From: Symplocastrum torsivum CPER-KK1
GTDB taxonomy: Bacteria > Cyanobacteriota > Cyanobacteriia > Cyanobacteriales > Coleofasciculaceae
Direction: 5' to 3'
Length of the DNA: 64,000 bases
Assembly: GCA_019358875.1 (NCBI GenBank)
Contig: JAHHIF010000033.1
Coordinates: 1 to 64,000 of the forward strand
Part shown: positions 5,468-20,099 of the stretch, one piece after another
Layout of the letters: the number at the start of each line of letters is the position of its first letter
How positions within the stretch are numbered: position 1 is the first letter of the stretch
Position numbers and translations under genes: made by a program
Notes under the pieces: model-generated
Databases searched by the model: none
What the model was told of the DNA's origin: nothing
The model's input: only the letters and a program-made list of their open reading frames with translations

Positions 5468-8400
5468 ATGACACAAAGGGTCATCACCGCTCACCAAAAA
5501 GCTCCGTCAAATGCTCCCGTTGCTGTGGAGCTATTTGCGGGAGTGGGTGGGTTCTCCCTTGGCATGAAAGCAGCTGGGATAGATGTTGCGTTAGCGGTTG
5601 AATCAGACGAACAGACCCTCGCTACCTACGCTCAAAACTTTCCCTCAACGTCCGTTCTCTGTGCTGATGTGCAAGAGCTGACAGGACTTGAGATCCGCCG
5701 TCTTCTTGAGGTAGCCCAGAACCAACAGGGTAAGAAGTGGGATGGGAAAATTGGTCTAGTCTTTGGAGGTCCTCCCTGTCAGGGTTTATCAAGGATTGGC
5801 AAACGGGATGTGAATGACCCCCGCAATCAACTAATTGCCCATTTCTGTCGCCTGGTCGAAGAACTTCAGCCTACTGCTTTTGTTTTGGAAAACGTTCCCG
5901 ACTTGCTGCTGCCCAAATACGCAGGTTTAATCGAACCTTCCCTGCAACAGCTACAACAGGCAGGGTACAACACCTGGACTTGGGTTCTAAATGCCTTAGA
6001 CTACGGAGTCCCTCAAAGTCGAAAACGGGTTTTTATCGGAGGAATTCTTCACCATACCTCTCCCCAGTTGCCAGTGGCAGCATCTCAAGCCGTTATCGTT
6101 AGGGACGCGATCGCAGACTTAACGTTTCTATCAGAAGAAGCGTTTCCGCAACTCTTCGATACCGATGAATTGCAACTAGAGGAGAAGCAACCCACTCTGG
6201 AAGCTCAGCCTTCCGAGTACAGACTCAAGCTCGAACAGGTATTCCCTTCACCACCCACAACTAATCCTCACCTACTCACGGGCTGTTGCCTCACCCGTCA
6301 CACTCCATCAGTTGTTGAACGATTCAAGGCTACCGCACCGGGAACGACGGAGCCAGAAAGCCGTTTGTACCGCCTTAAGTGGGACGGAGTTGCTCGAACC
6401 TTGAGAGCCGGAACGAGAAGCGACAAGGGACGGCACACCGCTGCACGTCCGATTCACCCCACTCATGCCAGAGTACTCACAGTCCGCGAGGCGGCTCGCC
6501 TGTCCTCTTTCCCGGACTGGTTCCGCTTCCATCGTCGGATTTGGCGGGGTATGAGACAAGTTGGGAATGCCGTGCCACCGCTATTGGCGCTGGCGGTGGG
6601 GGACGCCATTTATCAATGTCTGACACAACTAGAGGGTGCAACAGCAATGGAGACAGCGACTTTAACTGGCGCGATCGCCTCGGGCACTGAGCTGAGCGCA
6701 ATCGCACAAATATCGCCCACTCAAAAGCTTGCTCCAGGTGAGCATCAACTAGACCCCAAATTACTCAAACCCCATCCGCGTAACGCCGCTCTCTATGGCG
6801 AGGATGAAAGTGTTTCGGACTTGGTGGAATTGATTGGCAACTCCAACTGGCTCAAGCCGCTAGTAATTACTCCTGACTTGATCATTATTAGTGGTCATCG
6901 GCGCTGGAAAGCCGCCCTTGAGTTAGGGTGGTTGAGCATCCCCGTAATTGTTAGGGAGTTCAAGGACGCTCTCGCCTCTCTAGAAGCGCTGCTGCTGGAG
7001 AATGCTACCAGGGAAAAAACGATTGAGCAGAAGGTCAGGGAAGCGGCATTATGGCAGGAAATCGAGCAGGAAAGTGCAAAACTTCGACAAGGAACCCGTC
7101 GAGACATCCAGGAAAATTTTCCTGGATGTTGTGAGCCGTTTGGGCAGTCTCGCGATCATGTGGCAAAACGTGTGGGGTTGGGTTCGGGGAAAAGATACCA
7201 GAAAGCCGTTAAAGTGGTTGAGGAAATTAATAAAGCCGTTTCGAGCGGACACCTTACTCGCGCTAAAGCCTTACAAAGTGTTTTGAATCAACAGAGTGTA
7301 GACGGGGCGTTCAAGCTGACTCAAAAACCCGTTGCACAGAGCGACCCGATTTTAGAATTAATTGCTAGCGGAGAGGTTCGCACTCCCAAGCAAGCCCAGT
7401 CGTTGCTAAAGAATCGGCAACGGTTAAAAGAGCGATCGCTCTTTACTCCAACTCACGAGCCTGACTTGTCCAACTTGCTTTCACATCATCTCACCCTAGA
7501 GCCAGGGGGGCTTGTAGAGATTTACGCGCCAGAACTTCCTGACTGGCATCAGCGCCAGGCTCGTATAGAATCAGTGGGTGAGAAGCAGTGTAAGGTATGG
7601 AAGCGAAATGTTCAGACGATGGATATGGAACTACGCAGCTTTCCTCATGCTGATTTGACTCCTCTCCCCTTGTCAGAAGTGCCGGAACTCGAAGAAATCA
7701 GTTCGCGCCTCAAGGCGTTGTACGAAACAGAACGTCTAGATGCATTTGACCGATACATTTTACAGTCGCTAGAGCGTTGCGTAAATTTGACTCCAACTGA
7801 ACGGGAATATCTCCATCAAATTGAGTTGAGATATCAGCAAGGACAACAATCAACCCAGAAGGGAACCGGGAATGGGGAACGGGAAACGGTGAGTCGCGAA
7901 GCGTTCCCCGTTCCCTCCTTAAACCCGTCAGTCCCTGATGTTACTCCCCTACACGAACACTCAATACCTGTTAGCTCTCCTGATGAATATCGTCTCGAAA
8001 CCCTTGAGTTTCCTCTACCTCCAACACTCAACGAGATGATTCGCACAGCTAGAGGCGGTTGGCAAGCTTCAGCTAAACAAAAGCGGGAGTGGACAGAATT
8101 AATTGCCTCTTACTGTAAGGAAGCGTATCAGTTTCAAGGAAAAATTTGGCTGGAGTATGTCTGGCGGGTGAAGAATTTAGCCCGCGATAATAACAACATT
8201 GCCGCCGCGACTAAGTACATTGATGACGGTTTAGTTGAAGCTGGGGTGATTGCAGATGATTCACTCAAATATATCCAGTCTCCAGTCTGCCATTGGTACG
8301 TTCAAAGTTGTGAAGATATGGTTACTGTCAGGGTATCCAACCTGCCGATTTACAACGGAGAGCCATTAGCAACAGTCGGTGGGCTTAGCGGAAAGCATTT

Positions 8401-8485
8401 TGAGCCTGATTGCTCTAGTCAAGAGCGGTACTTCACACCGTTAACTGTATCTGCGTTACCCCTTGGCGCAACTGGCGCTGTCTAG
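5468..8485 (+). CDS. C5-cytosine DNA methyltransferase / ParB-like / RusA-like fusion protein
   Basis: A 1005-residue three-part protein. Residues 18-390 are a C5-cytosine methyltransferase: motif I ELFAGVGGFSLG, motif IV GGPPCQG with catalytic Cys104, motif VI ENVPD, motif VIII QSRKR, and motif X QVGNAVPP. Residues about 425-580 match a ParB/Srx nuclease-like domain (KPHPRN, ISGHRRWKA). Residues about 845-960 resemble RusA Holliday-junction nuclease (PLPPTLNEMI, RDNNNI, IADDS), but the second Asp of the usual D-x-D-N box is Asn, so nuclease activity is doubtful. It contains two repeat insertions in frame: a 26-bp palindrome at 7104-7129 and a G-rich hairpin at 7875-7915. No restriction endonuclease gene is adjacent. 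The methyl-transfer role follows from the family; the role of the fusion is unknown. Confidence 0.85.
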   Translation: MTQRVITAHQKAPSNAPVAVELFAGVGGFSLGMKAAGIDVALAVESDEQTLATYAQNFPSTSVLCADVQELTGLEIRRLLEVAQNQQGKKWDGKIGLVFGGPPCQGLSRIGKRDVNDPRNQLIAHFCRLVEELQPTAFVLENVPDLLLPKYAGLIEPSLQQLQQAGYNTWTWVLNALDYGVPQSRKRVFIGGILHHTSPQLPVAASQAVIVRDAIADLTFLSEEAFPQLFDTDELQLEEKQPTLEAQPSEYRLKLEQVFPSPPTTNPHLLTGCCLTRHTPSVVERFKATAPGTTEPESRLYRLKWDGVARTLRAGTRSDKGRHTAARPIHPTHARVLTVREAARLSSFPDWFRFHRRIWRGMRQVGNAVPPLLALAVGDAIYQCLTQLEGATAMETATLTGAIASGTELSAIAQISPTQKLAPGEHQLDPKLLKPHPRNAALYGEDESVSDLVELIGNSNWLKPLVITPDLIIISGHRRWKAALELGWLSIPVIVREFKDALASLEALLLENATREKTIEQKVREAALWQEIEQESAKLRQGTRRDIQENFPGCCEPFGQSRDHVAKRVGLGSGKRYQKAVKVVEEINKAVSSGHLTRAKALQSVLNQQSVDGAFKLTQKPVAQSDPILELIASGEVRTPKQAQSLLKNRQRLKERSLFTPTHEPDLSNLLSHHLTLEPGGLVEIYAPELPDWHQRQARIESVGEKQCKVWKRNVQTMDMELRSFPHADLTPLPLSEVPELEEISSRLKALYETERLDAFDRYILQSLERCVNLTPTEREYLHQIELRYQQGQQSTQKGTGNGERETVSREAFPVPSLNPSVPDVTPLHEHSIPVSSPDEYRLETLEFPLPPTLNEMIRTARGGWQASAKQKREWTELIASYCKEAYQFQGKIWLEYVWRVKNLARDNNNIAAATKYIDDGLVEAGVIADDSLKYIQSPVCHWYVQSCEDMVTVRVSNLPIYNGEPLATVGGLSGKHFEPDCSSQERYFTPLTVSALPLGATGAV
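7104..7129. repeat. Second palindrome family, copy 1, inside a CDS
   Basis: ACATCCAGGAAAA followed by its exact reverse complement, within the ParB-like part of the fusion gene, where it encodes DIQENFPGCC. Two other copies lie outside genes at 8720-8749 and 57459-57484. Confidence 0.8.
7875..7915. repeat. G-rich hairpin repeat inside a CDS
   Basis: GGGAACGGGAAACG (7875-7888) pairs with CGTTCCCCGTTCCC (7902-7915) with one mismatch around a 13-base loop. It falls in the linker between the ParB-like and RusA-like parts and keeps the frame. Such GGGAACGGGG hairpins are common between genes in cyanobacteria. Confidence 0.6.
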
Positions 8486-8512
8486 CGAGCCAAGAGTACC
8501 GAACGCGCTTGC

Positions 8513-8725
8513 CCAGCAGCAGTAATCCTGGTGCATACCAACGCGGACAACACCCGAAACCCGTTGCAGTTTCTGCCACAGGAGTGCCTGCAAATCAGTT
8601 CGATGGATGCCGATAGCTGGCACTTCATGGCCTGAGACACGTAGGTTCACCAATTCTTTGCCCGTTTGGGATAAGAACTGATAGTTCGTCACCACATTGC
8701 CCACACGTAACGCCTCGTTCAACAT
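8513..8725 (-). pseudogene. Remnant of an FAD-dependent monooxygenase
   Basis: Minus-strand open frame reading RVGNVVTNYQFLSQTG, then VPAIGIHRTDLQALLWQKL. The IHRTDLQ block is typical of the aromatic-ring hydroxylase/UbiH-type FAD monooxygenases (pattern R-x-D-L-x-x-x-L). The N-terminal GxGxxG nucleotide-binding part is missing and the frame ends early, running into the 3' end of the methyltransferase fusion. The apparent start codon is formed by the palindrome at 8720-8749, so the repeat marks the break point. Only the middle part of the original gene is left. Confidence 0.5.
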
Positions 8726-8749
8726 CCAGGAAAATTTTCCTGGATGTTG
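8720..8749. repeat. Second palindrome family, copy 2
   Basis: A perfect 30-bp palindrome with half-site CAACATCCAGGAAAA. It sits at the truncated end of the FAD-monooxygenase remnant and about 200 bases upstream of the decarboxylase gene. Confidence 0.85.
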
Positions 8750-8948
8750 TTATAGTTCAAGTCGTTTTGTGATCGCTGGCTACCGTGCGACAAGGGAAAA
8801 GAGTTGACTGGTACTCTTTATAGAGAAACCCAAACGGGTTTTATTTATAAGGTAATGCGAGATGATCGCGGACTCGAAGAGAGCTGCGCTCCCATCGCAC
8901 GCTCTTTTTGTGGGATTGTTTAGCTCGGTGCTATCTAAGGAAGAGGAT

Positions 8949-10313
8949 ATGCGAGAACTCTTGCAAACAACGGCCCAATTCGCGATTCGCTATCTTGAAG
9001 GCTTGGACGCTCGTAACGTTGTGCCAACCCAGGAAGCGATCGCCAACCTCATCCAGTTTGATGAACCCCTCCCTAATGAGTCTGTCGAACCGGAACTTGT
9101 CTTGCAACTGCTCGATAAAGTTGGCTCACCTGCATCAATGGCACAGGCAGGCTCCCGCTTCTTCGGATTTGTCACGGGTGGTTCCCTGCCTGCCGCTTTA
9201 GCAGCCAACTGGCTCGCCGCAGCATGGGATCAAAATTGTGGACTCTATCGCATCACTCCAGCTACAGCCTTATTGGAAGAGGTAGCTTTGCGCTGGCTAC
9301 TCGATGTACTGCATCTCCCCGCCGAGTGTGGTGGTGCCTTCGTTACGGGAGCAACTGTTGCTAACTTTACCGCCTTAGCCGCCGCCCGCCACGCTGTACT
9401 CGAACGAGAAGGTTGGAATGTAGAAGCAGACGGGTTGTTCGGTGCGCCACCGATTACCGTTGCCGTCAGTGAAGAAGTACACCCAAGCTTGTTGAAAGCG
9501 TTGGGATTGCTGGGATTAGGTCGAAGCCGAGTCGTGAAAGTGCCTGTTGATGGACAGGGGCGGATGCGTCCGGACGCCATTCCACCCCTGACTCGTCCTG
9601 CGATTATCTGTACCCAAGTGGGAAATGTGAACACAGGCGCGTGCGATCCAGTCGGAGCGATTTGTGATCGCGCTAAAGAAATAGGAGCCTGGGTGCATGT
9701 AGACGGTGCATTCGGACTCTGGGCAGCAGTAGCACCATCATTGGCGCACCTCACCGCTGGTATGGAAGAGGCAGATTCTTGGGCGACAGATGCTCACAAG
9801 TGGTTGAACGTGCCGTATGATAGTGGATTAGCGTTTGTTCGCGATGCCCCTGCGTTGCAAGCGGCAATGGCGATTACTGCCGAGTATTTACCCACTGTCA
9901 GCGAGCAGCGCAATCCATCAGATTATACTCCTGAATTATCAAGGCGTGCGCGTGGTGTTGAAGTGTGGGCAGCATTGCGCTCATTGGGTCGCTCTGGTTT
10001 GGCAGACTTAATTGAGCGTACCTGTCGCCATGCTCGACATTTTGCTAAGGAGTTGAAAGCGGCTGGTTACCCGATTCTCAACGATGTGGTGTTGAATCAA
10101 GTCTTAGTGTCGTTTGGGGATGCACAAACCACTCATCGGGTGATTGCCGATATTCAAGCTGAGGGGACTTGTTGGTGTGGCAGTACGGTTTGGCAAGGAC
10201 AGACGGCGATGCGAATCAGTGTTTCGTCTTGGGCAACAACGGATGCTGATGTGGAAAAGAGTTTGGCAGTTATGCTGCGAGTTGCTGGGAAATATTGTTC
10301 TCGTGAATTTTAG
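8949..10313 (+). CDS. PLP-dependent decarboxylase family protein
   Basis: Fold-type I pyridoxal-phosphate enzyme of the group II decarboxylase family (glutamate/aromatic amino acid/diaminobutyrate decarboxylase-like). Signs are the TGATVANFTALAAARH segment, the HVDGAFG block (Asp to the pyridine nitrogen) and TDAHKWLN, whose Lys284 should form the Schiff base with PLP. The substrate cannot be told from sequence. The frame is open from ATG 8862, but MRELL at 8949 after AAGGAAGAGG fits the family N terminus better. The 3' end from 10103 on is duplicated in damaged form at 21687-21900. The gene runs alone, and the next gene is convergent with it. Confidence 0.85.
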   Translation: MRELLQTTAQFAIRYLEGLDARNVVPTQEAIANLIQFDEPLPNESVEPELVLQLLDKVGSPASMAQAGSRFFGFVTGGSLPAALAANWLAAAWDQNCGLYRITPATALLEEVALRWLLDVLHLPAECGGAFVTGATVANFTALAAARHAVLEREGWNVEADGLFGAPPITVAVSEEVHPSLLKALGLLGLGRSRVVKVPVDGQGRMRPDAIPPLTRPAIICTQVGNVNTGACDPVGAICDRAKEIGAWVHVDGAFGLWAAVAPSLAHLTAGMEEADSWATDAHKWLNVPYDSGLAFVRDAPALQAAMAITAEYLPTVSEQRNPSDYTPELSRRARGVEVWAALRSLGRSGLADLIERTCRHARHFAKELKAAGYPILNDVVLNQVLVSFGDAQTTHRVIADIQAEGTCWCGSTVWQGQTAMRISVSSWATTDADVEKSLAVMLRVAGKYCSREF

Positions 10314-10368
10314 GATGAGCGATCAGTTAACGATTGCAGATGTAGGTGTGAGCTACCTCTGCAATTGC

Positions 10369-13300
10369 TTATTTTTGTTTGAAGTTGGCTACAAACTCCC
10401 AAAGACATTTCTTGTTTGGTAGCGGATTCTCCTCACGAGTGGCAGCTAGTGTCTCATCAATTTGCTCTAAACATTTTGCTAGAAACTCAGTTTCTCTGTA
10501 CTCGCCCTCAGCAATATTTACTTCATAATCTTGAACGAGAAGGTTGGCTAGGCTGACTAGCCATAGCAGACAAATACTTGCTTTATGCCAAGCTTGGTAG
10601 TGACGGGAGCGTAAAAATGGCTGGCGTAAAACACCTTGAGCTTTACTTCGGATATTTTCAAGTCTTTCCAGCCAGTTTTTCCTGTGTTCTGCATTGTTAT
10701 TTACAATCGCCCATGCACCAAGTTGAATCAGCTCAAAACCTTTTGACTCCTCTAAACCAGGTTCAAATGTTTCACCTTCTTGTTGGCGGTTTGGCGATGA
10801 AACATGGGCTTCAAGCTGTTTGAATAAGATTGGTAGCCAAAGCTCCGCCACCTGCTCGTCCGACAGCTTACCATCGTTAATCAACGGGATGAGAAAATCG
10901 TTGGTCGTAGACACTACCCAATCTCCCTCGCTGGGGCCGCTCAAACGACGAACGATTTCTGAAAGTTCTGCATTAGATATATCTGTAGGGAATACTTCGT
11001 GCATTTGGTTAAATATTTTCACAAGAAGTTGCCCCAACGCTTCATCTTCTTCTAAATATCTTTTCTGATTTGCCCTGACTCTTAGGTTAAAACCCCACTC
11101 AGCAAGAGTATACGTTTGTTCCAACGAGGTTAGAACTGCAATCGCTGTAAATGCTTCCAATGGCTTAGCCCTAGAGTTCCATAAGGGAGAGAAACTGTTG
11201 GCAGCGATCGCCCGAATCAGCGGAATATCGCTTCCTAATAAAGCCGATAGGAACGGGGGATTTTCTCTGCATCCAAGTCGAGCCACAAGCAGATCGTCAA
11301 AGACCTGTTTTAAGATGAAGGCAAGAGTATGTTTGAGATTCCAAAGTTTAGAGGCATCAGTCTCATTCTCTGGTATTGTAGCTAGAGCTTGCTGCAACTC
11401 TGTAATTATGCTCACGAGTGTTCCTGGGTCTAGCTGAGCCAAAACTTGTGCAGCATAGCGGATTCCATTGTCCTGCAAGCAAGGAACCCAAGTCCGACAA
11501 TCAGCAAATCTCAATAGCTCATCGGATTTTTGTATGGCTTCTGGGAAACCTACATTCAGCATGTCCGTAAGCAACAAAGTTTCAGCATGAGTGTCTGACT
11601 TAAATGACTCAATGGGAAGGTTTAATTGGTCTGGTGCCTTAACGAGGAAATCTTTAAGCCTTAATGAAAGGGTTTCTCCACTGGAAGAAATGATTTGATC
11701 AAGATAATCACTGCTGTTGGGGGTATGATTTAGCCAACTCCATAGTCCAGTCCACAGTTTGATGAAATCGGGGGGACTGGCAGTAATGAGAGCTGGAGCA
11801 AATTGACCTAAGTAAAAATCTGCCTGAGCGGAATCCTCCTCTCTAAACTCAAAGTTTCTTCTTTCCTCGTCTAAATCGCCGTAATTTTTGAGGCGATCGC
11901 CCAATGCGGTTTCATCTAGAGACAGAAGGCTGTCATCTTGCAGAAGGGTCGCAAAGAAAAAGTTGACGTGTGGAATATCGGATAGCTTAAATGAACTCCT
12001 ATCAGCGGACAGTGTTCTTGGTTCGCGAATTGATGAAAACAGTGGAATAATTCTGCTATTGGAGTCAGAGGAAGGATTGAGCAATTCCTGGACATAAGCT
12101 TCTACAGTCGAGAGTACATCGCTGGGAATCGGAGTGATTAGCAATGGGTGATGTTTTGTCGCTCCCTGGATGGAATTTGACAGGTGATAGCCAGTCTTTG
12201 CTTTTCCCTGATTGTCAAACAGCAGGATGTAGCGATCGTGGAATAACTGATCGTTCTTCTCAGTTGTACTTCTCAGATCCAGTAACCGAAACTTCAAACC
12301 AGATAGGAGTAAGTTAATATCCCCTCTATGACAAGCTCCTTTGAGCCGCGTTGCTCGTTGAGGCTCCCTTGGTTGGTTGGGATCTGTGGGGTACTGGGAA
12401 TTGGTTTGGGTATTGGCAAGAACCACATATTCAGCTTGAGCAGCTCTTGCTCTTGCAATCACCTCTATGATCCCTGATTCGTCAAAGTATGGATCGACAA
12501 TCAAAACCTTGCTAATGGATGCGTCATCTGTCAGCGATTGGAGCCACTTGAAGAAGGTAAAGATTCCAGGCTCCTCCATGTTGGCTCCCCAACCATTTCT
12601 GATGAAGAGACCTCCAGAAGGTCTAGAGAAAAGACGTTTCGCAAACTGGTAGATCTGTTGTCCTTCAACAATCCAAGGCGCAGGTTGATAGTTAACAAGG
12701 CTGAGTTGCTGATAGTGAGTTTGCCTAACAGTTTGAGCTTGTTTAATTGGCTTGCTGAGTTTTTTAGCTTTACTATATTCTCTGAGCCAATTTGATTCGA
12801 GTTGTCCTTCAAAGCCATTAATACCTTGATTGAGGTTTACCTGTCTGAAGATTGGAGCTGAGCTTTCGTACCAAATTTCCTCTACGTCTCTATGTTCTGG
12901 CTGTACCCAAATAGTAACGAGATACTTAGTAATTTCCTGCTGAGTTGTGAAACTAACTGACGCACCTGATTCCGTAACTTGAAGAGTTTTCAGGCAGTCG
13001 AGACTAACCTCCTGCTCGTTCCAGAGGCGGCAACGCACTGTAGCCTGAGCGCCGATTGCGAGTACATCTGGCGGAATTTCAATTGTTGCGGTGTAAGCAG
13101 GGGAGTCAAAGCTAACCTGAACTTGTTTTTTTTCGTAGCGATCAGCGGAGGGAAAGCACAGCCATTCGAGATTACCTAATCGCTTACTATCTGCGTCACA
13201 AAAGGCTAATCCTGTTTCCGCCTGCAAGTGGGAGAGGCATTTTTTTGCTAAATTTTCGTGTTGGGGAAATGGTGTACCATCGGCTGCTCGGAAAAGATTC

Positions 13301-14034
13301 AGCTTACCAAGGCGACAAAGTGAACCTATAAATGCTGGAACAACTTCATTAGGGCTAGTAATTGGCTTCAATTCATCAATGACTGCTAGGTGAGACCATG
13401 CGGGTTCGACAAAAATAACTGGTCGAACGATGAACGTTCTTGTTAATTCCCTTTGTGATGCTGCCAGACGAAATTGCCCGCAGGGATGGGGTTGATTGGA
13501 GGAGTTCATAGGCTCAGCAACTCCAATTTGTTGACAGGCTTCCTGCAAAGAGAAACCTTCACAGAGTTTCGTTACCAGATTGAAAATCGTCTTACCACAA
13601 TGGTGAAAATTGAGTCGGTACGCTCGATAGGCATACGGAGTGACCTTCCATTCGGGTAGGAAGTTAGAAATTGACCAAGTGTTTAACTCCCTAAGTATTC
13701 TGGGGATAACCCAACCATATAAGAGGCGATATTCTCTAGTTTCTGCTTTCTTGATTTCAAGTGACCACAGGCATAAATCACAGGCATCTGAACTGTCTGG
13801 GCTGAAAACTCTTGCCAAGTGACGATCCTGGCTTAGCTCATCTAGGGATTGCATAAGATATTTAGGTTTAGGAAACGTATTTGTAGGAGTCCTCAGACTG
13901 GCTGCGGTTTTGGCTCCAAACTTCGCCACAAGTACCACGAAGTTGACCCGCGTTAAACTCTTGATAATCGCCTCATCGTCCATGACTTCCAACTCCTCAA
14001 GCGTGGGCAATCCGTCGCTCGCATGACGTGCCAA
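10369..14034 (-). CDS. Large PLD-like protein resembling the VPA1262 family
   Basis: A 1221-residue cytosolic protein without membrane segments. The N-terminal 250 residues include paired His/Cys stretches, and the middle (about residues 490-680) is phospholipase D-like: VLIVDPYFDESG near 515 and FHDRYILLFDNQGKAKTGYH with His599, an HxD-type catalytic box. The C-terminal 500 residues look all-helical. This layout reminds me of VPA1262-type proteins, which are reported in bacterial defence islands; that is recollection, not a search. It starts 5 bases after the ligase-DHH gene. The frame opens at a TTG (14034); ATG 13980 after a GAGGAG ribosome-binding site is an alternative start. The close spacing argues that it works with the ligase and glycosylase on DNA ends or damaged DNA. 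Confidence 0.6.
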   Translation of the reverse strand: MARHASDGLPTLEELEVMDDEAIIKSLTRVNFVVLVAKFGAKTAASLRTPTNTFPKPKYLMQSLDELSQDRHLARVFSPDSSDACDLCLWSLEIKKAETREYRLLYGWVIPRILRELNTWSISNFLPEWKVTPYAYRAYRLNFHHCGKTIFNLVTKLCEGFSLQEACQQIGVAEPMNSSNQPHPCGQFRLAASQRELTRTFIVRPVIFVEPAWSHLAVIDELKPITSPNEVVPAFIGSLCRLGKLNLFRAADGTPFPQHENLAKKCLSHLQAETGLAFCDADSKRLGNLEWLCFPSADRYEKKQVQVSFDSPAYTATIEIPPDVLAIGAQATVRCRLWNEQEVSLDCLKTLQVTESGASVSFTTQQEITKYLVTIWVQPEHRDVEEIWYESSAPIFRQVNLNQGINGFEGQLESNWLREYSKAKKLSKPIKQAQTVRQTHYQQLSLVNYQPAPWIVEGQQIYQFAKRLFSRPSGGLFIRNGWGANMEEPGIFTFFKWLQSLTDDASISKVLIVDPYFDESGIIEVIARARAAQAEYVVLANTQTNSQYPTDPNQPREPQRATRLKGACHRGDINLLLSGLKFRLLDLRSTTEKNDQLFHDRYILLFDNQGKAKTGYHLSNSIQGATKHHPLLITPIPSDVLSTVEAYVQELLNPSSDSNSRIIPLFSSIREPRTLSADRSSFKLSDIPHVNFFFATLLQDDSLLSLDETALGDRLKNYGDLDEERRNFEFREEDSAQADFYLGQFAPALITASPPDFIKLWTGLWSWLNHTPNSSDYLDQIISSSGETLSLRLKDFLVKAPDQLNLPIESFKSDTHAETLLLTDMLNVGFPEAIQKSDELLRFADCRTWVPCLQDNGIRYAAQVLAQLDPGTLVSIITELQQALATIPENETDASKLWNLKHTLAFILKQVFDDLLVARLGCRENPPFLSALLGSDIPLIRAIAANSFSPLWNSRAKPLEAFTAIAVLTSLEQTYTLAEWGFNLRVRANQKRYLEEDEALGQLLVKIFNQMHEVFPTDISNAELSEIVRRLSGPSEGDWVVSTTNDFLIPLINDGKLSDEQVAELWLPILFKQLEAHVSSPNRQQEGETFEPGLEESKGFELIQLGAWAIVNNNAEHRKNWLERLENIRSKAQGVLRQPFLRSRHYQAWHKASICLLWLVSLANLLVQDYEVNIAEGEYRETEFLAKCLEQIDETLAATREENPLPNKKCLWEFVANFKQK

Positions 14035-14039
14035 GTCTT

Positions 14040-16982
14040 TCAGGTAATCTCAAACCCAAGCGAAGTTAGCAACTCATTCCATCGCTCAACAGGCAAGCTG
14101 CCCCCAGATGCACTATCATGTCCGTGACCGTAGCTTCCTTCTCCAGGCGGCAAGTCCACATTTTTCAAAAAGTCAAGCACATTGATTCCCGATGCAGTTC
14201 TCATGCTGAAGTTAACGCGCCCAGGAATATATCCCTCATTCGCAACCATGACGATATACTTGGGCAATCGAGTGCGCCAGCTTTGGGCAATCAGTGGATG
14301 GATTTGACAAGGTGAGTTAATCCGCACTAAGGCGACATTTCCAGAAAAGACGGGTGCGGCTTTCTTTGCTTGTTCCATCGCTACCTGCACTTCTTTCCGC
14401 GCTATCCGTAATTGTTCAACGTCTTCTGTGTTTGAGTTAACCAGCGATCGCGGATTATCATGAGTCAGCAATGCCCTTACTGCCACCTCTGGATGGTACT
14501 GAGAAGCACGCCGTGCCGCGTTAATCAGAGCAGATGCTTCTTTTAAATACTTGGCAGTGTACTGACTCTTTGCAACTGCCAGCATCTCAAACGGAGCTTT
14601 TTCACCTAAATCGCTAACTATACCAATTGCAGCAATCCAATCTAAATCTGCTACATCTGTCAGAGACGAACACAACTCCCAAACGAGTAGTGATGTATTG
14701 GGGATAGGTTCCCAGGTGTAAGCACTAATCAAAGTATCACCGGACGGAACCCCTTCTGGACGATGGTGATCGATAAAGCAGGTGGGAACGCCAGCAATCA
14801 CGGGTTCCGATTGACTGCCCAAATCGAGAACGAATAAACTATCGAGTGCAGCAGCAATCGCTCGTTCTCGGTTTGCAGGTGTCCAGGCATTGCGATCGCG
14901 ATCTGGTGCAACAAGCTTCACATTCTCAAACCCAGCGCGTGACAACGCTAGCTGCAACACAACTCCCGCCGTCACCCCATCTGCATCCGAGTCGTGCAGC
15001 ACTCCGACAGACTTATCGCGTTCGATACCATCCACAAATGCCTTAAATGCTTCACACGCGGCTTCAAGCGTTGGTGTCTGATTAGTATCGTTTTCCAACT
15101 GAATAACATCAGTTTCTCTCCTATGGGGAATCTCCAATGGTGCGGCAGAATCAACAAATTTTTCAGACTCCTGCGTTGCAGATTCAGCAGACAGCGTTTG
15201 AGCCAAACGGCGAACCGTCTCCAGGGTGTCAATTTCTTCAGGAGGTTTATCATTTCGCACGCGCACAATGCGAGGAAACCGCAGTGCATAACCACTATTG
15301 TGTCGCGAAGATGCTTGCACACGGTCAAACGTCACTTCCAGGACAATGTGCGGTTCCACGATACACACCTTACCATGCGCCAATTCTTGCAAGGTATGGG
15401 CGCGAAACCAATCGGAAAGTTCAGCCACTTGGGCATCGGTTAACCCTGAATATGCCTTACCGATATTCAACAGCGTTGGCTCGGTTTCGCTTTGGCGGAC
15501 GGCAAAGGTATAGTCCGAGAGGAAACGATGCCGTTTGCCACTCCCCACCTCGGCGGCTGTAACAACAACATCCAGTGTTGCCATTGCACGTTTGATTTTC
15601 AACCAATCACGTCCCCTTCTACCGGGTTTGTAGGTTGAATTCAAATCTTTTACCATTAAGCCTTCATTTCCTCTGGCTCTTGCAGCGGTGAATTCTGCAT
15701 CTAAGCCGGAAATATCGCTGACTTGTTGGGAAAGTCCACAGCGTACTCTTTGAGTATCGAGGTGAAGTGATTCAAGAATATTTCGCCGTTTGGCAAAGGG
15801 TTCGTTAATCAGAACTCGCCCAAACGCATACAAGACATCGTAAGCAATGAAAGCAACAGGAACAGCGGCAAGTAATTCGTCTGAAACTTTTTTGCGTCCC
15901 AGTCGCTTTTGCAGTTCTTGAAAGGGGAGGATGCGTTCTCCTTGAATGGGTACAATCTCTCCATCTAAAATTAAATCGGCTGCTTCATCGCTATGTTTTG
16001 AGGCTAAGTTGATAGCCGCAAGCGGTTCGATTAAATCGGGAAAACTGGCGGTAATTTCATCGAGTGTCCGGGAGAAAATAGCAACACCCTTACCATTGCA
16101 AACTGTGCCGTGGAGAATTGAGTTATCTTCCTCTAAGTAAGGGGCAATGTGAACTTGGGCGCGAATCCCGTCATACTTGTCTTCAACCGCAAATCCAGCA
16201 GGCATTTGTTTGGCTACTTCTGTTAAATCGTCGGCGGGAGTTGCCAACATAAATTTAATCGGGTGAAATAGTCGCATTTGGGCTTCGTCAAGTTTCTTAA
16301 GCCTTGCCATTAAGGCAGTTTCGCCAATATCTCCGATTAGCATATTGACCCACTGTACCTTGGAGATATCGGTTTCGTTAAGACGAGCGATCGCATCTTC
16401 AACGGCACCTTCTTTCAGTCCAATCCGCAAATCGCCTGCTAACAGCTTGACGATATACTTGGCTTCTAGAGGTGTTGCCATCTTCAACAACTCTATAACC
16501 AGTTCGGTTTTGCGTTTGGTTCCTGTTGTCGCTGCTAAGAGTTCGAGTTGGTTTGATAAGGAATCAAGGGTGAGAATGGGTTGATGCTGTGAACGTTGTG
16601 GATTATTGGTAAACGCTTCCTCCGTTACGTCACCGGGGTCGCCCAGTTTTACTAATCGTTCTTGAAGGGCTGATTTTTCTTGTTCGCTTACTGCTGCGAT
16701 CGCACTCAGCAAAGCCGCTCCACCTATATTAATAGTACGCTGGTCTCGTAAGGGAAATATATAACCGGAAAAGTATCGTGCAGCTAGTACTAAGTCATTA
16801 TCCGATAGTGAGGTAAAATAGCTACCCAGTAACGATGCTTTTGTCAAGCGCTTTGTTGTTGCTCCAACTTTTTCAGCTACAGAAGCAAAATCAATGAAGG
16901 CTCCAGGATTTAATTCTGGACTTTGATTAAAGTTGGTTTCAGTTTCGACGTTTGGGCGTGTCAACTTGGGGTTTTTAGTCAT
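14040..16982 (-). CDS. ATP-dependent DNA ligase fused to a DHH/RecJ-like phosphoesterase
   Basis: A 980-residue fusion. Residues 25-210 match the N-terminal DNA-binding domain of archaeal/eukaryal-type ligases. The adenylation domain carries EDKYDGIR with nucleophile Lys269, LILDGEIV, and EGLMVKD and DWLKIKR near its end, followed by an OB fold to about 590. From about 640 on is a DHH phosphoesterase: HDSDADG (664-669), LDLGS, FIDHHRP (DHH at 738-740) and GIVSDLGE. The end has a DHHA1-like glycine/histidine block YGHGHDSASGG. Joining a nick-sealing enzyme to a RecJ-like nuclease in one chain is unusual. The start codon overlaps the stop of the upstream glycosylase (ATGA), so translation is probably coupled. 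It would act in DNA end processing or sealing; the pathway is inferred. Confidence 0.85.
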   Translation of the reverse strand: MTKNPKLTRPNVETETNFNQSPELNPGAFIDFASVAEKVGATTKRLTKASLLGSYFTSLSDNDLVLAARYFSGYIFPLRDQRTINIGGAALLSAIAAVSEQEKSALQERLVKLGDPGDVTEEAFTNNPQRSQHQPILTLDSLSNQLELLAATTGTKRKTELVIELLKMATPLEAKYIVKLLAGDLRIGLKEGAVEDAIARLNETDISKVQWVNMLIGDIGETALMARLKKLDEAQMRLFHPIKFMLATPADDLTEVAKQMPAGFAVEDKYDGIRAQVHIAPYLEEDNSILHGTVCNGKGVAIFSRTLDEITASFPDLIEPLAAINLASKHSDEAADLILDGEIVPIQGERILPFQELQKRLGRKKVSDELLAAVPVAFIAYDVLYAFGRVLINEPFAKRRNILESLHLDTQRVRCGLSQQVSDISGLDAEFTAARARGNEGLMVKDLNSTYKPGRRGRDWLKIKRAMATLDVVVTAAEVGSGKRHRFLSDYTFAVRQSETEPTLLNIGKAYSGLTDAQVAELSDWFRAHTLQELAHGKVCIVEPHIVLEVTFDRVQASSRHNSGYALRFPRIVRVRNDKPPEEIDTLETVRRLAQTLSAESATQESEKFVDSAAPLEIPHRRETDVIQLENDTNQTPTLEAACEAFKAFVDGIERDKSVGVLHDSDADGVTAGVVLQLALSRAGFENVKLVAPDRDRNAWTPANRERAIAAALDSLFVLDLGSQSEPVIAGVPTCFIDHHRPEGVPSGDTLISAYTWEPIPNTSLLVWELCSSLTDVADLDWIAAIGIVSDLGEKAPFEMLAVAKSQYTAKYLKEASALINAARRASQYHPEVAVRALLTHDNPRSLVNSNTEDVEQLRIARKEVQVAMEQAKKAAPVFSGNVALVRINSPCQIHPLIAQSWRTRLPKYIVMVANEGYIPGRVNFSMRTASGINVLDFLKNVDLPPGEGSYGHGHDSASGGSLPVERWNELLTSLGFEIT

Positions 16983-17941
16983 GCCTGAACCTCGATAATG
17001 TTCTCCCCTGTGGCAACAACCTTTCGCTTGCTTTTTGTTTTTTTCAGCTCTACGTTAGTTCCCTGGCAGGTAGGGCAAAAGTAAATTATTCGGGTTTTCT
17101 CTCCTTCTTCATCTGCTCTAGTAACTTGACGAAGTTGGCGGATTGTGCCGCCACAGTCTAAACACGGCAGGTTAGTGCGGCGAAAAACGTAGTGCCTTGT
17201 GCCGTACTCGCTTCCAGGTGTGTAGACAAGGGAGGGGTTATTAATAAGATGTGAACGCGCTTCATCTGATACGGTGAAGCCGCCTGTAGCGTAGGCGCGT
17301 TGAGCCATTAAGGGAATTGAATGAATTAGGCGTTCTAGTTCCGATGCTGTCAAATCGGCAACTTTTCGCCACGGATCGAGGCGACAATCAAATAGTATTT
17401 CGGCTCTCAGGTAGTTCCCAATTCCGGCAAGAATCTGTTGATCGAGTAAGGCAGCACCAATGGCGCGATCGCTATTTTCGGGTGTCACCAGCTTTTGCAG
17501 GAACTCAGGTGCATCGAAGGGCTTTTCGTCTGGATAGGGTAGGATATCTGTACCGAGAGTGCGTAAGTTTTCGACAATTTCAAAGGGATTGCCCGTGCCT
17601 AAATCAAAAATGGGTGCAGAGTAAAGAATGGCGCAGGCATCGGGTACGACAATACGCGATCGCTCGCGGCGATCTATTTCTTGGGGTGGATTGTCTAAAA
17701 CTGCCCAACTTCCCCACATCATCAGATGGGAGTGGAAGTAGTAACCACCTTCAATTAAGCCGACTAGGTGCTTGCCATGCGAGAGGACTCGTTCGATACG
17801 CTTGTTGAGTAAGACACCTGGATGCTCTTTTTCCCAAACTTTTGCTGTCTTTGTCCGTGCCAAGAGTGACACGATGGGTTTGCCCCAAAGTGCCTGATTC
17901 AAGGCATCGGCAAACCGTCTGACTTCTGGTCCTTCTGGCAT
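16979..17941 (-). CDS. Fpg/Nei family DNA glycosylase-AP lyase
   Basis: The 320-residue protein begins MPEGPEV, with Pro1 (after Met removal) and Glu2 as the catalytic pair of the Fpg/Nei family. A helix-two-turn-helix region (LLDQQILAGIGNYLRAEILF) and a C-terminal zinc finger (CLDCGGT ... CPTCQG) are present. It excises oxidised bases and cuts the abasic site. The acidic and His/Met-rich central part (YYFHSHLMMWGSW) looks closer to endonuclease VIII/Nei-like proteins than to housekeeping MutM. A basic Lys/Arg-rich tail follows the zinc finger. It overlaps the ligase-DHH gene by four bases and is the first gene of that pair. The AAA-DUF4435 gene ends 190 bases upstream on the same strand. Confidence 0.85.
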   Translation of the reverse strand: MPEGPEVRRFADALNQALWGKPIVSLLARTKTAKVWEKEHPGVLLNKRIERVLSHGKHLVGLIEGGYYFHSHLMMWGSWAVLDNPPQEIDRRERSRIVVPDACAILYSAPIFDLGTGNPFEIVENLRTLGTDILPYPDEKPFDAPEFLQKLVTPENSDRAIGAALLDQQILAGIGNYLRAEILFDCRLDPWRKVADLTASELERLIHSIPLMAQRAYATGGFTVSDEARSHLINNPSLVYTPGSEYGTRHYVFRRTNLPCLDCGGTIRQLRQVTRADEEGEKTRIIYFCPTCQGTNVELKKTKSKRKVVATGENIIEVQA

Positions 17942-18131: not shown

Positions 18132-20099
18132 CTATTGAATGTTTTGGATTTCTTTCAACAGACATACAAAATCGTATGGAATAAGGGACGGCACATCATC
18201 AATCACCTTCGCGATGATCTCCAATTTCAATTGAGATTCTTTTTGAAACCGCCTCAGCTCTTGAAAGGCATTTTTCAGAGTTGTTTCTAAATCATGTCCT
18301 TGGGTATGAAGAAACCATTTGGGCAAGCTTATGACTTGCCCACTGAGGTATTGACATAACAATTTGTCATCTTCGATTGTTGGAAGTATATGAGGTTTTA
18401 CTTTATTTACTACGAAATCAGCTACCTCTTGAAGCCGAGTACTATCAAAAGTTACAAAGTTAGTATAGTTTTCATGCATACTAAGTCCAATGGCACTTCG
18501 TTCTATCCACTTTTCTCGCAAAAGGAAAGCTGCAACAAGAACTGGATCAAGAATATAATTTTCGATGCTATAACGGTTTCCTTTACCAAGAACTTTAATG
18601 CGCTCGTTGCCACAATTGGTTAAATCCCAGTCAATAATCCCGTAGACTGTTCGACTGCCTCCATTTTTCAGTTTATTAACAATGTCTTTTACTTGCTCAC
18701 AATTACCGTTTCCTCTTGCTCCGGATGCAATGAAGTTAAGTGACACTTCGGGTATCAAATACTCTCTTAGCTTTTCATACAATCGTTCATAGAACTGAAC
18801 ATCGTAATGGCTTTCGACAAACACTTGACGACGATTCTCGTAATCTATACTTAAGGTTGGAACCCCAGTAGTCAAAATGGACAAAGCTTTATCTTTCGTA
18901 GTCTTCTGCATCCGTCTTTGATCAGTCTTATACATCGCGTACAGAGATTCTTCTGGAGCAAGAGCTACTGTGGAAGGTGAATGTGTAGTTAGAATCACCT
19001 TAATCCCATGGTGATTGACCAAAACATCTTGAATAGTACTTAAAAGAGATTGAGTCATTGAAGGGTGTAAAGGTGCATCAATCTCATCGAATAATAGAAT
19101 CTTTGGATAATCTACGATTTGACGACGATCTCCTGCATAGTAGAGACACAATGCAAAAGACATTAATACTCTTTCGCCTGAAGACAGATTGTTAAACTTT
19201 ACTTGTGAGTTCCTTATTTTATCAGTGAGAATTGGCTCGTAAGGTCGATCATCATATTTCGGTGGATGGTTAATCCTAAAATCGAGATTTGCTGCTTCAA
19301 GAACACTATTTACAAAATCCCAAGGTGGTTCACCATACCTATCCACGAACTCCTCATCAGTCAAAAAAGTGACGGATTCACCATCGTGATTCGCAACATA
19401 CCTAATTCGATTTCTGAGCCAATTGCTTTGATAGTTAGCAAAGAGACGACTAAATGATTGTTGAAACATATCAATAGGTTGCCAACTGCTGGGAAAGTGC
19501 TCATAAAAATCATTTTCCTCAAAAGCAATAAAGGGCTTATTAGTATTTCTTTGAAAGAGGCTAACTAGTCGTGATCTATTATTAGGATCATTTTGTGTAA
19601 ATCTAGCAGCTACATTTTGAGTTGCACTAGAAGTGGCACTCTGAATTGCTTGGATAATCTGATTTGCTTGCTCTGGAGTACTACCTGTTAAAATTAGTTT
19701 TTCTGGTGTGAGACTTATGAGCTCACTTATCTCAAGTTTGTCTAAATCAAATCGATTCAATTGCTGAAGAGTTTGAGAAATTTGAGGTCGATATTCTTTT
19801 ATATACTGAGAAAGTTCATTCCAAAAATTATATCTTTCTTGAGTGATTTCATAAGGTGCGAAAGCACCTGTATCTTGTGGAATGAGGTTTGTCCAATCAA
19901 ATCTACGAATCGGACGTGTCTGATTGTTTACTACAATATCGTCAATTTGCATTGAGCCATTTTCAATTGCCTCTAGCAGATGACTCTTCCCTGCACCATT
20001 CACCCCTGTGAGAACCACAAAATTAGGTAGTTCTGTTTCTGGGAAAGAAGCTATTGATTTGTGAACCCTGAGAAACGACAATCTCATAGTGTTTGTCAA
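18132..20099 (-). CDS. AAA ATPase with C-terminal DUF4435/TOPRIM-like region (OLD/PARIS-like)
   Basis: A 655-residue protein. The N-terminal half is an SMC/ABC-type ATPase of the AAA15/AAA21 kind: Walker A GVNGAGKS (Lys38), signature LSSGERVLMSFAL, Walker B ILLFDEIDAPLH, and a switch His in TTHSPSTVALA. The C-terminal part (about 430-560) has VFVESHYDVQFYERL, GIIDWDLTN and YSIENYILDP, matching the layout of DUF4435/TOPRIM-type nuclease domains seen in OLD proteins and in AriB of PARIS. Such ATPase-TOPRIM proteins are commonly phage-defence effectors; function here is inferred. It is AT-richer than its neighbours, which suggests separate acquisition. It is the first minus-strand gene of the 10.4-20.1 kb cluster, 190 bases ahead of the glycosylase. 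Confidence 0.75.
   Translation of the reverse strand: MTNTMRLSFLRVHKSIASFPETELPNFVVLTGVNGAGKSHLLEAIENGSMQIDDIVVNNQTRPIRRFDWTNLIPQDTGAFAPYEITQERYNFWNELSQYIKEYRPQISQTLQQLNRFDLDKLEISELISLTPEKLILTGSTPEQANQIIQAIQSATSSATQNVAARFTQNDPNNRSRLVSLFQRNTNKPFIAFEENDFYEHFPSSWQPIDMFQQSFSRLFANYQSNWLRNRIRYVANHDGESVTFLTDEEFVDRYGEPPWDFVNSVLEAANLDFRINHPPKYDDRPYEPILTDKIRNSQVKFNNLSSGERVLMSFALCLYYAGDRRQIVDYPKILLFDEIDAPLHPSMTQSLLSTIQDVLVNHHGIKVILTTHSPSTVALAPEESLYAMYKTDQRRMQKTTKDKALSILTTGVPTLSIDYENRRQVFVESHYDVQFYERLYEKLREYLIPEVSLNFIASGARGNGNCEQVKDIVNKLKNGGSRTVYGIIDWDLTNCGNERIKVLGKGNRYSIENYILDPVLVAAFLLREKWIERSAIGLSMHENYTNFVTFDSTRLQEVADFVVNKVKPHILPTIEDDKLLCQYLSGQVISLPKWFLHTQGHDLETTLKNAFQELRRFQKESQLKLEIIAKVIDDVPSLIPYDFVCLLKEIQNIQ

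Follow-up and report, generated by a model that had tools for sequence, protein, structure and literature searches.

In the alternative excision repair route of UvsE/UVDE, the UV damage endonuclease cuts so that one end is a 3'-OH and the lesion lies on the 5'-phosphate side. The nuclease that acts downstream in the UVDE pathway of fission yeast is the FEN1 homologue Rad2; to our knowledge, none has been assigned to follow UvsE nicks in bacteria. Nei-type lyases leave blocked 3' ends, and Nei-type glycosylases are expected to leave a 3'-phosphate.

A fusion between an MBL (RMMBL) nuclease and LigB has been reported from Opitutus terrae and Antarctic Dry Valley metagenomes (PMC10140301). The bacterial LigD proteins, which combine ligase, phosphoesterase and polymerase, and the LigC complexes have been linked to base excision repair (PMC5663958, PMC4770248). 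RecJ of Deinococcus radiodurans (DrRecJ), a DHH/DHHA1 enzyme, prefers ends that mimic 5'-dRP and acts in long-patch base excision repair with PolA and LigA, ahead of sealing by the ligase (PMC7515722). Its two metals are bound by D79, D81, D83, D135, H159 and D223, and R109, R280, S371 and R373 contact the 5'-phosphate (PMC4846377). RecJ2 of Methanocaldococcus jannaschii (MjaRecJ2) is a 3'->5' enzyme and is inhibited by 3'-phosphate (PMC5615345).

Here, we analysed a gene of Symplocastrum torsivum CPER-KK1 that codes for a DNA ligase joined to a RecJ-like phosphoesterase. It lies in a stretch of 64,000 nucleotides of contig JAHHIF010000033.1, hereafter the window.

Domain architecture and active sites of the fused protein

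The fused gene for an ATP-dependent DNA ligase and a DHH/DHHA1 phosphoesterase occupies positions 14040-16982 (minus strand) of the window. It starts with ATG and runs without interruption for 980 residues. An assembly artefact or a chance ORF was ruled out by the identical fusion architecture found in several other genomes. The N-terminal 595 residues make up a complete archaeal/LigI-type ATP-dependent DNA ligase, whose three Pfam domains all score above the cut-off. These are the N-terminal domain DNA_ligase_A_N (residues 29-199, 16386-16898, minus strand; 115 bits, full-length profile match), the adenylation domain DNA_ligase_A_M with EDKYDGIR and EGLMVK (residues 245-464, 15591-16250, minus strand; 145 bits) and the OB-fold domain DNA_ligase_A_C (residues 486-579, 15246-15527, minus strand; 41 bits). 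The TIGR00574 profile (dnl1, archaeal/LigI type) gives 280.5 bits for a curated cut-off of 217.8, and the nearest solved sequence is that of the thermostable DNA ligase 2cfm. The nucleotidyltransferase motifs are complete, with K269 in EDKYDGIR followed by SRT, LDGEIV, EGLMVK and WLKIK. With the LigB 'cisplatin damage response' equivalog TIGR04120, the ligase reaches 338 bits, below the cut-off of 400. No MBL domain was found in the fused protein by Pfam, the ligase beginning at residue 29, and no Lhr helicase or MBL exonuclease gene adjoins it; the adjacent genes in the window code for a Nei glycosylase, a VPA1262-family protein and an AAA ATPase.

For the C-terminal part, Pfam detected DHH (residues 660-772, 26.9 bits) and DHHA1 (residues 910-973, 18.6 bits), both just under their curated cut-offs of 28.1 and 25.9 bits. 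As Pfam alone is insufficient as proof of a DHH domain here, we used structure and a family alignment. The AlphaFold2 model of this module has a mean pLDDT of 92, and its best fold match is DrRecJ 5f54 (Z 32.4, rmsd 2.8, 319 residues). The three DrRecJ structures 5f54, 5f55 and 6lrd score Z 32.2-32.4, 6lrd being the complex with 5'-P-dSpacer, an abasic mimic. A profile of the DHH family likewise retrieved RecJ as the first match in both NCBIfam and PDB. The fold does not reveal polarity, since the 3'->5' enzyme MjaRecJ2 also matches, at Z 30.6. Together, the model, the fold match and the alignment establish a RecJ-type DHH and DHHA1 core at residues 641-980 (14043-15062, minus strand), which is predicted to be a nuclease of 5'->3' polarity. 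The DSDADG, DHH, SxR and GHGHD motifs are all complete in the fused protein and are almost invariant in an alignment of 84 DHH relatives. In that alignment, DHH at residues 738-740 (14763-14771, minus strand) corresponds to motif III, and GHGHDSASGG at residues 952-961 (14100-14129, minus strand) to DHHA1 motif VII, with H955 as the counterpart of DrRecJ H397. Unlike in bacterial RecJ, the chain stops at residue 980 directly past DHHA1, with no OB-fold after it, and the DHH half scores 41-46 bits with the bacterial RecJ equivalog TIGR00644, far below the cut-off of 397. Stand-alone DHH relatives are mostly ~330-390 residues long.

According to the alignment and the motif positions, the metal ligands of DrRecJ correspond to D664, D666, D668, D720, H739 and D791, and its 5'-phosphate pocket residues R109, R280, S371 and R373 to R695, R825, S926 and R928, respectively. 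The R825 assignment relies on the match between NAARR in this protein and the NAxGR motif V of the RecJ from the same genome. The four pocket residues are identical in eight of eight fused proteins. Only one of the eight departs at a metal ligand, namely H739, and two have lost or replaced the residue corresponding to H955. In the wider DHH family, the 664 position is His or Asp, the 695 position Arg or Lys (Lys in 35 of 84 sequences) and the 926 position mostly Ser or Ala (Ala in 45 of 84). Beyond the fused proteins, the 5'-phosphate pocket thus varies.

The two halves are joined by a weakly conserved linker of ~44 residues (597-640; 15063-15194, minus strand), with disorder predicted at 599-633. 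The linker varies in sequence and in length across relatives (13-44 aligned residues). Between the window's protein and its relatives, the ligase and DHH identities go together (93/91, 71/70 and 79/79%), with 19-61% for the linker. The three non-saturated pairs gave dN/dS values of 0.11-0.18 (ligase) and 0.09-0.14 (DHH half); those of the linker are 0.4-1.06. Both modules are thus under similar purifying selection, and the tether is hardly selected. The full-length model has a pTM of 0.50 and a pLDDT below 50 at 599-633, and with this low pTM and disordered linker, the active sites have no fixed placement relative to each other. A DNA path shared by both sites, for which the earlier note had suggested a look at the predicted structure, is therefore not predicted.

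That note, made from the letters alone, had read a ligase and a RecJ-type DHH part in a single uninterrupted frame. The 980-residue ORF, the Pfam ligase domains, the DrRecJ match over 319 residues and the motifs kept in 84 relatives confirm this reading, and Lys269, EGLMVK and the DHH at 738-740 are where it had placed them.

Partner genes in the window and at related loci

The gene upstream of the fusion (16979-17941, minus strand) overlaps the start of the ligase by 4 bp. It codes for a 320-residue Nei/Fpg-type DNA glycosylase (endonuclease VIII-like) with H2TH and Fapy N-terminal domains, an MPEG N-terminus and two CxxC pairs, for which the best NCBIfam match is endonuclease VIII (Nei). The glycosylase that had been proposed to supply the nick is thus real. 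No polymerase is encoded in the operon of the fused gene. On its other side, with a start only 5 bp beyond the stop of the fused gene and in the same orientation, lies a gene for a VPA1262-family protein (10369-14034, minus strand; 607 bits with NCBIfam NF040699). It is absent from all related loci examined and looks like a local neighbour. Beyond the glycosylase gene, an AAA ATPase is encoded at 18132-20099 (minus strand). Its C-terminal part matches the ATPase-Toprim/AriA-type proteins of PADLOC and, weakly, DUF4435, which makes it a candidate OLD-like defence protein. Elsewhere in the window, a 1005-residue ORF (5468-8485, plus strand) combines a C5 cytosine DNA methylase (residues 20-382) with a ParB N-terminal domain (residues 437-512); its C-terminal end appears RusA-like by eye, which Pfam did not call.

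The DHH family, which has no name, extends beyond the fusion. Scanning 84,980 species with its alignment yielded 168 relatives, and we analysed the genetic environments of the best 80. As these were chosen by similarity, the following proportions are not a census. Among these best 80 of 168, uvsE adjoins the DHH gene at 33 loci, downstream of it in most, a ligase gene does so at 17 and a Nei gene at six; neither uvsE nor a ligase gene is nearby at 32 (~40%). Of the 31 gene pairs with uvsE downstream, 25 show an overlap of exactly 4 bp with the DHH stop, plasmid loci accounting for three of them; we took the uvsE start nearest to the DHH stop, which favours short distances but not the exact 4-bp value. 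Nei genes neighbour the ligase or DHH genes at nine related loci (L037, L038, L046, L063, L066, L093, L142, L143 and L148). The Nei-ligase-DHH order is found in cyanobacteria as well as at deep-branching Bacteroidota/Rhodothermota loci. At the Microcoleus locus L046, genes for UvsE (225 bits by Pfam), Nei, ligase, Crp and DHH stand in a row. The link to lesion-nicking enzymes that had been proposed is thus present here and at these nine loci through Nei, and through uvsE for the stand-alone DHH proteins.

The window's own genome has a uvsE gene, unlinked to the fusion. UvsE is encoded in all seven of the 391 genomes of the order that carry the ligase and/or the DHH protein, as compared with 109 among all 391 (p = 1e-4 by genome and 1e-3 by genus in a hypergeometric test that ignores kinship).

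Other features were observed at individual loci. In L046 (Microcoleus sp. FACHB-1515), DHH is directly followed, at 11224-12899, by genes for an N6/N4 DNA methylase and a restriction enzyme of the EcoO109I type. Loci L044, L045 and L047 share a conserved cyanobacterial cluster of uvsE and DHH, followed by a gene for a haem-oxygenase-like protein (PF14518) and three more genes. The megaplasmids of Deinococcus aetherius (L032, 11974-13050) and D. taeanensis (L034, 8974-10050) code for stand-alone DHH relatives of 43-45% identity that are annotated as hypothetical and have no uvsE or ligase gene nearby. Going by the record titles, organisms of deserts, soil crusts, lichens and leaf surfaces are among the carriers, as are Deinococcus organisms.

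Distribution and history of the fusion

The fusion is rare: a full-length search recovered one fused copy among 386 phylum-wide genomes. No plasmid or phage relative of the full fusion covering 80% of the query was found. Fused proteins are encoded at L037, L039-L042 and L055, in Coleofasciculus, Calothrix, Nostoc and Dulcicalothrix. One genome (G468) has two full Nei and ligase-DHH copies, at L142 and L148, with 93% and 78% identity to the copy in the window.

The DHH tree, built from 84 rows, unites the fused proteins in one clade (one change, support 100/98), nested in a group whose members have a ligase gene adjoining, uvsE adjoining or neither. In the ligase tree, the DHH-associated ligases split from the LigB-like enzymes that marine and other cyanobacteria possess (support 100/100), and the fused ligases lie in one clade together with one ligase-only genome. 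Adjacent separate ligase and DHH genes occur in relatives, often in the order Nei-ligase-DHH. In several genomes whose closely related DHH gene has no ligase neighbour, the cognate ligase (51-66% identity) is encoded at another locus. Because the fused DHH clade sits among split-gene relatives and the ligase tree agrees, the order of events is separate ligase and DHH genes, then a single fusion, and later losses. The fusion is therefore derived, a late and single event in one cyanobacterial group, and the pairing of separate genes is older. An ancient fusion is rejected.

The fused gene is dispensable, as seen from genome G652 and from Aliterella atlantica. At L147 of G652, which belongs to the fused clade, a 606-residue ligase is kept and no DHH match was found anywhere in the genome, a secondary loss of the nuclease half. 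At L038 of A. atlantica (8115-11035), the ligase frame is broken near residues 324-337 and the DHH part is intact, which reflects either a decayed copy or a sequencing error. L144 (G430) is apparently a decaying copy: Nei is followed by a ligase without ~356 N-terminal residues and by a DHH part that reaches the contig end.

Proposed function and comparison with known systems

Given its partners UvsE and Nei, the DHH protein is most simply explained as a 5'->3' excision nuclease that acts after incision and is tethered to the ligase in the fused group. On balance, we consider it likely that the fused protein represents the trim-and-seal half of an excision repair module initiated by lesion nicking. 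The Nei glycosylase/AP lyase encoded by the overlapping gene would open the strand at oxidised bases; in many relatives, and possibly here from the unlinked gene, UvsE would do so at UV photoproducts. The RecJ-type core would then take hold of this strand, opened or displaced, at its 5'-phosphate end and degrade it 5'->3', which would remove the damaged or abasic residue. The gap would be refilled by a general polymerase encoded outside the operon, and the ligase, kept near by its flexible tether, would seal the nick. This order of events, a hand-off between the halves and a benefit of tethering are what we infer from the arrangement. The reading draws on the gene linkage, the match to DrRecJ and its abasic-mimic complex, the pocket kept in the fused proteins, the role of DrRecJ in long-patch repair and the similar constraint on both halves. 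Against it speak the match to the 3'->5' enzyme MjaRecJ2, the varied pocket in the wider family, the missing OB-fold, the ~40% of the 80 loci with neither uvsE nor a ligase gene nearby and the dispensability of the fused gene. The 3'-phosphate expected after Nei would be an obvious target for neither half, and other enzymes would be needed for its removal. The compact base-excision-like pathway imagined in the earlier note is thus only partly supported: the fusion, the RecJ type and the link to lesion-nicking enzymes stand, but the operon has no polymerase gene and no common DNA path is predicted. Whether UvsE or Nei, DHH and, in some cases, a cognate ligase form a dedicated bacterial excision repair pathway that is so far undescribed, and whose nuclease and ligase merged in one cyanobacterial group, is a slightly more doubtful proposition, to which we give a little under even chances.

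Other activities of the DHH half can be imagined. Its direct tethering to an ATP-dependent ligase could suggest aprataxin-like proofreading, in which it would clear 5'-adenylated or otherwise unsealable 5' ends left by aborted ligation at damaged nicks; unsealable 3' ends generated by the Nei neighbours might well provoke such abortive adenylation. We consider this unlikely, as stand-alone proteins prevail among the DHH relatives, many of which have uvsE rather than this ligase as a partner, and as the pocket fits a 5'-monophosphate site and not an adenylate site. The blocked 3' ends left by Nei-type lyases raise the possibility of a 3'->5' exonuclease that trims them before sealing, which appears rather unlikely given that the commonest partner, UvsE, leaves a 3'-OH and places the lesion on the 5'-phosphate side. 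The RecJ 5'-phosphate pocket residues are, moreover, all kept in the fused group. MjaRecJ2 provides a precedent for 3'->5' polarity with the same core fold, but it is inhibited by the 3'-phosphate (PMC5615345).

The DHH half might also be a nucleotide housekeeping enzyme, i.e. an NrnA, pAp or cyclic-dinucleotide phosphodiesterase with no joint DNA function with the ligase, and the methanogen pAp phosphatase 8a8k is indeed among the better fold matches (Z 29.5). Nevertheless, NrnA-type chains score Z ~19-21, clearly below the 32 of RecJ, the family profile finds RecJ first, and the partner genes code for DNA repair enzymes, all of which makes this role quite improbable. Lastly, the VPA1262-family and AAA genes that adjoin the Nei/fusion pair, together with the resemblance of the AAA protein to PADLOC defence ATPases, could indicate an anti-phage defence island. 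We give this very little credence, because neither the ligase-DHH nor the Nei protein has a PADLOC match and neither neighbour is present at any related locus examined. Trimming and sealing after lesion nicking thus remains our preferred reading.

In the literature searched, which covers subscription journals poorly, we came across neither a ligase fused to a RecJ-type DHH protein nor the present DHH family in association with UvsE or Nei. The fusion, found in one of 386 genomes and in no paper, does not belong to a widely characterised family. We regard it as a composite repair ligase, and the repair module behind it is possibly new. As a natural tethered nuclease-ligase, it lets one ask if coupling of trimming and sealing limits the exposure of repair intermediates.

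Among described proteins, the MBL-LigB fusion is likewise a single chain in which a repair nuclease accompanies an ATP-dependent ligase of three domains (PMC10140301). Its nuclease is N-terminal and of the metallo-beta-lactamase fold, and its ligase is LigB-type, whereas in the fused protein described here a RecJ-type DHH/DHHA1 core is at the C-terminus and the partners are Nei and UvsE. DrRecJ has in common with the DHH half the DHH/DHHA1 core fold, the metal site, the 5'-phosphate pocket residues and the inferred position in the pathway, but it is a separate protein with an OB-fold and a further C-terminal domain, at ~20% identity (PMC7515722, PMC4846377). As for UvsE/UVDE repair, we found no description in the literature of a DHH nuclease in this role, and uvsE is the commonest neighbour of the present DHH family. 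With its 4-bp overlap with downstream uvsE in 25 of 31 pairs, and its fusion to a ligase gene beside Nei in other genomes, the DHH gene is a concrete candidate for the post-UvsE nuclease. Finally, LigD and the LigC complexes similarly bring ATP-dependent repair ligases together with end-processing activities (PMC5663958, PMC4770248); the fused protein differs from them by having no polymerase domain, another phosphoesterase and a LigI-type ligase with a DNA-binding domain.
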